DNA from: an uncultured Bacilli bacterium
GTDB lineage: Bacteria > Bacillota_I > Bacilli_A > RF39 > UBA660
Length of the DNA: 60,941 bases
Assembly (NCBI GenBank): GCA_947624565.1
Contig: CANQKX010000006.1
Coordinates: 1 to 60,941 of the forward strand
Direction: 5' to 3'
This document shows, in pieces, positions 22,168-25,359 of this stretch. Made by a program: the position numbers and the translations under genes. The notes under the pieces were generated by a model. The model was not told the origin of the DNA. It ran no database searches and worked only from the letters and a program-made list of their open reading frames with translations. Position 1 is the first letter of the stretch, and every line of letters starts with the position of its first letter.

Positions 22168-22425
22168 TTGAACGATTTATTATTAGAAAAATATGTAAAT
22201 AAATTAACAAAAGATCATATTATAAATTATGCTAAAAATAATGAAATTATTGTTAGTAATAATGAAGTGGATATAATATATGACTATATAAAAAAATATT
22301 GGAGAAAATTTTATTATGAAAATCCTAAAGATTTATTTGATGAACTAAAAAGTAAATTATCACCAAATACTTATAATAAACTAATACAAATTTATACTGA
22401 AGCAAAAGAAAAAATTAAGAAATAA
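22168..22425 (+). CDS. Small protein, possibly DUF2624-like (TTG start)
   Basis: AGAGGTG RBS then TTG; LTKDHIINYAKNNEIIVSNNEVDIIYDYIKKYW. Confidence 0.6.
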   Translation: MNDLLLEKYVNKLTKDHIINYAKNNEIIVSNNEVDIIYDYIKKYWRKFYYENPKDLFDELKSKLSPNTYNKLIQIYTEAKEKIKK

Positions 22426-22437: not shown

Positions 22438-22722
22438 TTATATATTCATATATTGTATTATTAATCCAATTAGTTCTTCAATATTTTGCATGTAAACCAT
22501 CATTGCCTCTAAATAATCTTCATCTGTTGGAGGTTGTTTTTCTAAATCATTAATTTCTCTACTTTTTAGAGGAGTAAATTGTATATTATTATTTTGTGCA
22601 TATATTGTTAAATATGCAAGAATAGATTTTAGTTTTTCTACTAATTCATTTTGTTTTTGATTGATATTTAATTTTAAAAACTCTTCCATAAATTCATCAA
22701 ATATTTTTTGCTTTTCATCCAT
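22438..22722 (-). CDS. Hypothetical protein, third gene of the poly-G promoter operon
   Basis: Intact ORF next to the 507-aa gene. Confidence 0.6.
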   Translation of the reverse strand: MDEKQKIFDEFMEEFLKLNINQKQNELVEKLKSILAYLTIYAQNNNIQFTPLKSREINDLEKQPPTDEDYLEAMMVYMQNIEELIGLIIQYMNI

Positions 22723-24245
22723 TATAGTTTCATTCCTCCATTGTAGGTATTAACAAATATTCCTTTTTTTAAATTGCTTTGGGAATTTAGTTTATCCTTC
22801 ATATTTTTATATCTTTCATCTACTTCAATTTTTTCATTTTTTACTTTTTCTTCAGTTTCCTTATTAGATTTTATTTGTTGCCTTTTTTGCTGAATTTTTT
22901 CATCTATTTCACTTATTTCTTTAGAATGGTCTCTTTTTTTAAAATGTTCTCTTACATCTCCACCAATAACTTCATAACCCGCTGAATATACTTCCCCTTG
23001 TGATTGAGCATATTTATATCTTTCGGAACTTAAATTGGAAATTTCGCTTTGTATTTGATTATTTCGTATATTCATATCACTAGATATATTTTGTTGGTGT
23101 ATAACTTTATCTATTGTTGATTTATAATTTATTAGTGCTTTTTTCGATTCACTAACTATCCTATCGTTTTCCATTTTGTCTATAGATACATCCAATTTGC
23201 TTTTTTCTTCTTCTGTTAAACTTCTCTCTATTAATTTTTTTACATTTTCTAGAGTTTTATGGATAGATTTTCCTGTTGATGATTTATGATAAAAAAATAT
23301 ATACTTCGAATCTTCTTTAAACATTTGTAAATCCGATATTAATTTATCTGACGTTCTCATTTTTTCTATATATTTTTTAGATATTGACATAATTTTTGGT
23401 TTTACAACTCTTCTTATTGTAGTTATTTCCTCATTTATATCTTTTTTTACTTTTTTATCTTCTATTTTATTTAAATTGTAAGCAACTTTATTAATATCAT
23501 TGAATAATTCTTTTAAATTTTTTTCACTATATTCTCTTCTTGTATCATAGTCTTTATCTATTTTTTTATTACTATTATAAAGTTCTTTTCTTAAATCCTT
23601 TATTCTAATTTTATTATGGATTTCTGGTACCTTTGTATATGATACACGTTTAAAAAATTCAACTCTAAACTTATTCTGATCATGTGAAAGTTTATAAATA
23701 GTAGGCATCTGATTTCCATATGTTGAAACAAATTTTGATTTATTAGCATCTGATAATTTTTTTAATGTGTGTTTTTCTATTTTTTTTCTTAATGATGAAA
23801 TTTCTTTTTTTAATTTTTGCATTTCATTTATCAACTTACTTAAATTCTTATTTTTATTATTGAGTTTATCTAAATCTGAATAACTGGTACATATATAACT
23901 AATTTCATCTAATTCACTGATTTGTTTTAAACTATTTTCTACTTCATTAAGAGATTTTATAAATGATGATCTCATTTTGCAAAATTTTTTTAATTTAGTT
24001 TTTCTAAAATTTTCCAACTGTTGTTGTGCTTCTTTTCCATATACTCTATTTTTTTTTAAATCTTCATTAAATTTATTCTCATAGCCATATGAGGTTAACT
24101 TTCCATTAAAACTACCTATAAGTGTTGTTACCGCATCAAGCAGATTATATTTTTTACCAGAAAAATTACTAAAAAATTCCCCCATTCCCCATCTTAAAGC
24201 ATATTTTTCTATATCATATTTATTAATATCATAACTATTTATCAT
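22722..24245 (-). CDS. Long coiled-coil protein of unknown function
   Basis: Charged heptad-rich 507-aa ORF, no TM segment. Confidence 0.65.
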   Translation of the reverse strand: MINSYDINKYDIEKYALRWGMGEFFSNFSGKKYNLLDAVTTLIGSFNGKLTSYGYENKFNEDLKKNRVYGKEAQQQLENFRKTKLKKFCKMRSSFIKSLNEVENSLKQISELDEISYICTSYSDLDKLNNKNKNLSKLINEMQKLKKEISSLRKKIEKHTLKKLSDANKSKFVSTYGNQMPTIYKLSHDQNKFRVEFFKRVSYTKVPEIHNKIRIKDLRKELYNSNKKIDKDYDTRREYSEKNLKELFNDINKVAYNLNKIEDKKVKKDINEEITTIRRVVKPKIMSISKKYIEKMRTSDKLISDLQMFKEDSKYIFFYHKSSTGKSIHKTLENVKKLIERSLTEEEKSKLDVSIDKMENDRIVSESKKALINYKSTIDKVIHQQNISSDMNIRNNQIQSEISNLSSERYKYAQSQGEVYSAGYEVIGGDVREHFKKRDHSKEISEIDEKIQQKRQQIKSNKETEEKVKNEKIEVDERYKNMKDKLNSQSNLKKGIFVNTYNGGMKL

Positions 24246-24550
24246 TCTAATCTCTCCTTTAACTCTTCAATAACTTTTACTAGTTCTTCGTCATCAACTT
24301 CATCAAATATAGTTTCTCCGTTTTCTTCAATTATTGAATTTACATATATCAAAATTTGTCCATTATTTAATTGTTTATTATCTGTATATACTACAAAATC
24401 ACCATCTTCTATTGTTATATATGATAAAACTTCGTATTCTTTTTTTTCTCCATTCTCATCTGTTATATATATTTTTCTATCTTCTTCTGTAAGTTCAATA
24501 TCATCTATATTTTTATCACTTTCTTCTAAAAAACCCAAATCTTTATCCAT
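24242..24550 (-). CDS. DUF1292-like acidic protein
   Basis: EYEVLSYITIEDGDFVVYTDN...ILIYVNSIIEENGETIFDEVDDEELVKVIEEL; start set at MDKDLGF after AGGAGATATTA. Confidence 0.75.
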   Translation of the reverse strand: MDKDLGFLEESDKNIDDIELTEEDRKIYITDENGEKKEYEVLSYITIEDGDFVVYTDNKQLNNGQILIYVNSIIEENGETIFDEVDDEELVKVIEELKERLE

Positions 24551-24575
24551 ATTAATATCTCCTATTCTAATTTCT

Positions 24576-24606
24576 AGTATACCCCCCCCCCAAGCATTTT
24601 TGTCAA
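24576..24606 (-). promoter_or_regulatory. Promoter with G10 tract in the -35/-10 spacer (candidate phase-variable promoter)
   Basis: TTGACA-AAAATGCTTGGGGGGGGGG-TATACT; spacer 19 bp. Confidence 0.75.
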
Positions 24607-24632
24607 CATATAGTTTACAATATATGTAAACT

Positions 24633-24661
24633 AAAAAAGTAGGATTATTTCCTACTTTTTT
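24633..24661 (-). terminator. Intrinsic terminator enclosing the gmk stop codon
   Basis: AAAAAAGTAGGA-AATAA-TCCTACTTTTTT. Confidence 0.85.
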
Positions 24662-25211
24662 CATTATCAATTATTAATTTAAATTTATCTACTGCTCTAT
24701 CTATATTTTGATTTACAATTATATAATCATACTTACTAGATTTTTCTATTTCTTCAACAGCAAGTTTAAGTCTACTATCAATAGTTTCTTTACTATCTAA
24801 ATTTCTTGTTTTTAATCTTTCTTCTAATTCTTCTAATGTTGGTGGAAGTATAAATATTAATATACTATCTTTTATAATATTTTTTATTTGAAAAGCACCT
24901 TGAACTTCTATTATTAAAAATACATTAATACCCTTATTTAAATATTCTTCAACTTTAGATTTTGGTGTACCATAATAATTATTGTTATATTCAGCGTATT
25001 CTAAAAAATTATCTTCTTTAATTTGTTTTTTAAACTCTTTTTTGCTTAAAAAATAATAATTTACACCATCTTGTTCATTTTCTCTTGGTTTTCTTGTAGT
25101 TGCTGATACTGACAAATGTCCTTCATTATTTTCTAAATACTTACTTACAATTGTATCTTTTCCTACTCCACTTGGACCTGATACTACAAACAATTTCCCT
25201 TTTTTACTCAT
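24645..25211 (-). CDS. gmk: Guanylate kinase
   Basis: KLFVVSGPSGVGKDTIVSKYL...SVSATTRKPRENEQDGVNYYFLSKKEF. Confidence 0.97.
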   Translation of the reverse strand: MSKKGKLFVVSGPSGVGKDTIVSKYLENNEGHLSVSATTRKPRENEQDGVNYYFLSKKEFKKQIKEDNFLEYAEYNNNYYGTPKSKVEEYLNKGINVFLIIEVQGAFQIKNIIKDSILIFILPPTLEELEERLKTRNLDSKETIDSRLKLAVEEIEKSSKYDYIIVNQNIDRAVDKFKLIIDNEKSRK

Positions 25212-25359
25212 ATTGCCTCCATAATGTAAGTACATTTTATCAAATTTATATTATTAATTCAATAAAAAAACAATAATTAATATTATTTTAATATATATTT
25301 TAAACTATAATAACAAATTTTTAATAAATTATTTTTTATTATATATAATAAAAAAGCAA

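Follow-up and report, generated by a model that had tools for sequence, protein, structure and literature searches.

Promoters with a homopolymer of G between the -35 and -10 elements are known from Neisseria meningitidis porA, where the number of G residues sets the spacing, and from Treponema pallidum tp0126; in both cases transcription is best at a spacer of 17 nt (PMC7864442). Documented cases of switching by a poly-G spacer have so far come from a small number of pathogens among the proteobacteria and spirochaetes. In Mycoplasma hyorhinis (vlp, poly-A tract) and M. mycoides (vmm, repeat in the spacer), surface-gene families are found in which each gene carries its own length-variable promoter tract (PMC10502178). 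For the Gram-positive Cutibacterium (Propionibacterium) acnes, 54 length-polymorphic tracts are described, nearly all of G/C and some in promoter spacers (PMC4746626). A search of the PMC literature, with subscription papers lying outside its scope, returned no description of poly-G or other homopolymer phase variation in Bacilli-labelled bacteria of the kind analyzed here.

We analyzed a stretch of 60,941 nt (the window; contig CANQKX010000006.1 of assembly GCA_947624565.1) from an uncultured bacterium labelled as Bacilli. The minus strand from 24606 to 24576 reads TTGACA-AAAATGCTT-G10-TATACT, with the G run abutting the -10 element. This is a G/C homopolymer of at least 8 nt between recognizable -35 and -10 elements (TTGACA-N9-G10-TATACT). 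The original prediction of a minus-strand promoter with perfect -35, near-consensus -10 and 19-nt spacer was exact. Its description of the spacer as filled by ten G was right as to the run, but the run covers 10 of the 19 spacer positions. The G10 tract sets the distance between the two elements, and it lies upstream of the gene start, outside the coding frame. A Shine-Dalgarno sequence follows TATACT at normal spacing from the ATG of the DUF1292 gene. As had also been proposed, the promoter occupies the short gap after gmk ahead of the DUF1292 gene; it stands directly 3' of a strong gmk terminator. The coordinates are listed in the table.

Table. Sequence features at and around the G10 promoter, and a second G-rich promoter of the same genome
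Feature	Position	Strand	Remarks
gmk, upstream flank of inserted cassette	24645..25235	-	Pfam Guanylate_kin E=2.4e-47
gmk intrinsic terminator, hairpin and U run	24633..24661	-	starts in last gmk codons
Inverted repeat TAGTTTACA-N5-TGTAAACTA	24611..24633	.	just upstream of -35, after gmk terminator
-35 element TTGACA	24601..24606	-	6/6 consensus
Nine nt AAAATGCTT between -35 and G run	24592..24600	-	
G10 homopolymer in 19-nt spacer, proposed slippage site	24582..24591	-	
-10 element TATACT	24576..24581	-	5/6 consensus
Shine-Dalgarno AGGAGA, ahead of ATG 24550	24558..24563	-	
DUF1292 protein, 102 aa from ATG 24550	24242..24550	-	Pfam PF06949 E=3.4e-6
507-aa orphan, predicted all-helical/coiled-coil	22722..24245	-	
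94-aa helical protein	22438..22722	-	sub-threshold MazG-like match
85-aa convergent gene, downstream flank	22168..22425	+	adjoins gmk in five congeners
Second G-rich promoter	G000:C25:3333-3356 (L432)	-	ahead of 149-aa gene

The run was said to be very unlikely by chance, and both a Markov model and shuffling gave expectations far below one. A first-order Markov model of the window predicted 0.0005 C10+ runs on the given strand, and 0.04 G8 matches were expected from shuffles. G10 is the sole G/C run longer than 5 nt in the window, and a pattern search of the 1.06-Mb assembly of the same genome found no G8+ run elsewhere.

Upstream, the gmk terminator insulates the genes behind the promoter from gmk (fold of the whole 66-nt stretch, -20.6 kcal/mol; z -5.7). 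Promoter and insulation are both direct sequence evidence, and with the terminator in place the G10 promoter is left as the main route of cassette transcription. Of 102 G-run promoters in the family, 66 have a T5+ run no more than 45 nt ahead of the -35 element, compared with 20% in the background. Between terminator and -35 lies a perfect inverted repeat of 9 bp, whose core GTTTACA-N5-TGTAAAC occurs nowhere else in the genome; this is a possible operator, perhaps for a dedicated regulator.

G9+ runs occurred in 80 of 145 family genomes, with dozens in some. The pattern TTGACA-N5-13-G8-T gave 192 matches in 33 of the 145 genomes, the window locus among them, versus 4 matches for the mirrored control, all four in one genome. 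When G9+ tracts were taken irrespective of any -35 element, 14 of 28 stood in a -35/-10 frame, versus 1 and 0 in two controls. The class comes in two geometries, with the run either abutting the -10 element, as at the window locus, or placed just behind the -35. Contigs of many relatives end near such promoters, as expected where sequence is repeated or variable.

Within a genome, sibling promoters have the -35, the spacer and the -10 in common, whereas the number of G residues varies, over a total range of 8 to 15. In genome G019, the sequence TTGACAAATATGC carries 9, 10, 11, 13 or 14 G in different copies; in G102, TTGACAAAACCTT carries G8 to G13, and in G138, TTGACAATACCACCCT carries G9 to G11. 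Among similar within-genome pairs, which represent sibling loci and not cells at one locus, G number was unequal in 74 of 153, while the flanks diverged by 0.097 substitutions per site. The siblings of G125 were invariant (G9 in 8/8 sequenced promoters). The sole same-locus pair found from different samples, on viral contigs, had G10 in both, and another viral promoter sought for this comparison was present in one contig only. These sequence comparisons strongly support the view that the window locus belongs to a genuine class of promoters whose G runs vary in length. Loss of mismatch repair was considered as a source of tract instability and rejected: a MutS_I domain is present in the window's own genome and scored over the cut-off in 137 of the 145 sampled genomes. 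With MutS present, mononucleotide slippage may therefore be restrained.

For ordinary TTGACA/TATAAT pairs in family DNA, the spacer mode was 17 nt. The G-run promoters had a mode of 19, followed by 18 and 20, with the G8+ sampling pattern biasing modestly against short spacers; the median spacer was 19 in 11 of 31 genomes. The suggestion that loss of two G would give an optimal 17-nt spacer thus fits the ordinary-promoter mode and the published systems (PMC7864442), but not the modal length of the G-run class. Given the class mode of 19 against the ordinary 17, the promoter as assembled, with G10, is probably weakly active or silent. If 17 nt is indeed best, most assembled copies, including the one in the window, would be weak or off. 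Alternatively, the modal length could mark 19 nt as the working state. Compensation between G number and the remainder of the spacer, such that total length is kept, was weak (correlation -0.27, with the choice of -10 unreliable in some genomes without a spacer preference).

The genes behind the class promoters mostly encode predicted exported or membrane proteins. Within their N-terminal 60 residues, the products of 91 of 98 non-redundant first genes contain a strongly hydrophobic segment, a figure inflated by paralogue families; among window ORFs this holds for 18 of 62. Pfam families among the targets include camelysin-like (Peptidase_M73), Gp10_C-type, LRR, lectin-like, Ig-like, SpaA and pilin-type proteins, as well as surface-modifying enzymes. 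The window cassette departs from this pattern, and so do a handful of other targets, among them a sigma-70-type protein (G142) and helical proteins (G076).

The cassette consists of three genes. The DUF1292 match of the first passes the gathering cut-off (28.2 bits versus 24). The 507-aa protein has no significant hydrophobic start and no known domain. It had no clear homologue among 386 family genomes, and nothing matched in phages or viral contigs. Against 385 genomes of the order, only weak matches were obtained (at most 23.4 bits, 22-26% identity), looking like coiled-coil background. An AF2 model built without an alignment was helical only (mean pLDDT 47.5) and too poor for a fold search. 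For the 94-aa protein, membership in the MazG-like family PF12643 was rejected (17.4 bits versus a cut-off of 27; E=0.0055). The cassette proteins were not assigned a defence or phage identity, since searches against PADLOC, PHROGs and NCBIfam gave sub-threshold matches only. The proteins are predicted to be cytosolic orphans, an atypical cargo for this promoter class. In the five congeners with sequence at this position the cassette is missing, and gmk directly adjoins the convergent 85-aa gene and PBP2. Because of this absence, and because the 507-aa protein is without clear homologues, we regard the cassette as a lineage-specific insert that carries a promoter of its own.

How does this compare with the described systems? 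porA is a single Gram-negative outer-membrane porin, whereas here the setting is a low-GC Bacilli-labelled family, a 19-nt spacer and predicted cytosolic orphan cargo. tp0126 encodes an OmpW homologue of a spirochaete; in contrast, many of the present genomes have tens of such promoters before paralogous genes. Among low-GC cell types, vlp and vmm come closest to the class-wide pattern, although they use an A tract or a dinucleotide repeat instead of G and belong to wall-less pathogens. C. acnes differs in being a high-GC actinobacterium with slow tract change along clades, and no repeated promoter families are described in the portion of the source used (PMC4746626). Devices of this kind are already known; by the literature searched, the novelty lies in the scale of use in uncultured Bacilli-labelled bacteria and in the orphan intracellular cargo. 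The comparative data indicate large-scale use in an uncultured, genome-reduced Bacilli-labelled group, mostly for exported proteins, and surface variation in this group would become directly measurable from metagenome reads.

Taken together, the promoter, its insulation and its membership in a class with differing sibling G counts make a phase-variable switch the best reading, and we consider it likely that the sigma-A-type promoter of the cassette is switched by slipped-strand changes of its G10 run, as at a contingency locus. Replication slippage would add or remove G residues in the run, and the altered -35/-10 spacing would change promoter strength for the three genes, which form a lineage-specific insert between gmk and the 85-aa/PBP2 genes. 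G10 (19 nt) would probably be weak or off, and G8-G9 (17-18 nt) on. The window locus would then be one case of a promoter class that appears widespread in the family, chiefly for exported surface proteins. We infer slippage at the G10 run, its effect on expression, the on-length and the function of the cassette.

Instead of switching, the G run might serve as an invariable structural part of the promoter, as the modal and median spacers of 19 nt could suggest. In this lineage, spacers of about 19 nt with a G run would then be read efficiently, through an A-like DNA geometry or by a dedicated sigma factor, and changes in length would be incidental. The invariant G9 copies of G125 are in line with this, as is a second G-rich promoter of the window's own genome, TTGACA-AAAGGCTT-GGGGAGGGGGG-TATACT, in which the run is broken by an A (G4AG6) and the spacer is again 19 nt. 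We nevertheless hold a fixed element to be unlikely: G number spans 8 to 15 among siblings within a genome, the run stands beside either the -35 or the -10, unlike a positional motif, and the surface-gene targets suit contingency loci. The sampling pattern, moreover, disfavours short spacers. The A-broken promoter is possibly a locked sibling of the G10 promoter, and the 149-aa gene behind it probably encodes an acetyltransferase. A more far-reaching proposal, which we put forward with considerable doubt, is that the family runs up to tens of poly-G switches per genome over paralogous surface proteins, that its RNA polymerase prefers G-run spacers of about 19 nt to those of 17 nt, with G9-G10 as the working lengths, and that the window holds a rare intracellular-orphan case.

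Returning to slippage within the promoter as the preferred reading, a frame open through G10 from TTG 24670 would allow the tract to be part of a 142-aa coding region, with slippage acting as a translational frameshift switch. This TTG lies inside gmk, however, and the frame crosses the terminator, the -35 and the -10. ATG 24550, in contrast, has a good ribosome-binding site, the DUF1292 match lies entirely downstream of the run, and class runs are mostly upstream of the start codon. The listed 142-aa ORF probably has the wrong start, and frameshift switching at this locus is very improbable. We assign an equally slight chance to a run length that results from faulty assembly or sequencing, or to a neutral chance run. 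Homopolymers in draft short-read assemblies do call for caution (PMC4577077), but chance expectations are far below one, an equal architecture is present in 32 other sampled family genomes, and miscounting by one or two G would leave the tract in place.

Several further observations were made. DUF1292 genes repeatedly precede, or are fused to, unrelated orphan sequences, both in the window's own genome (L418, L420, L421; window 22438-24550), which has five DUF1292-like matches, and in relatives (L422-L424); DUF1292 may partner fast-evolving proteins. In G142, a G10 promoter stands ahead of a 722-aa ORF with sigma-70 regions 1.2, 2, 3 and 4 (G142:C68, L343). A phase-variable sigma factor, if true, would switch many genes together. 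At three G080 loci (L359, L364, L368), runs of G10-G11 are flanked as in taaccta-G-cacgaaagactag and lie close to or within the starts of pilin-like genes; judging from this placement, switching there looks translational (frameshift) rather than promoter-based. TTGACA-N-G8+-TATA promoters were also present, among the matches listed, in records of Saccharibacteria, Clostridia, Streptobacillus, Spirochaetes and Helicobacter (L093-L172). Finally, in the window's own genome, a promoter TTGACA-TATACCCCTAGGGGGTAG-TATAAT precedes genes for a 96-aa CsoR-like and a heavy-metal ATPase-like protein (G000:C8:42864-42884, L431), and its spacer looks like it holds a metal-sensor operator.
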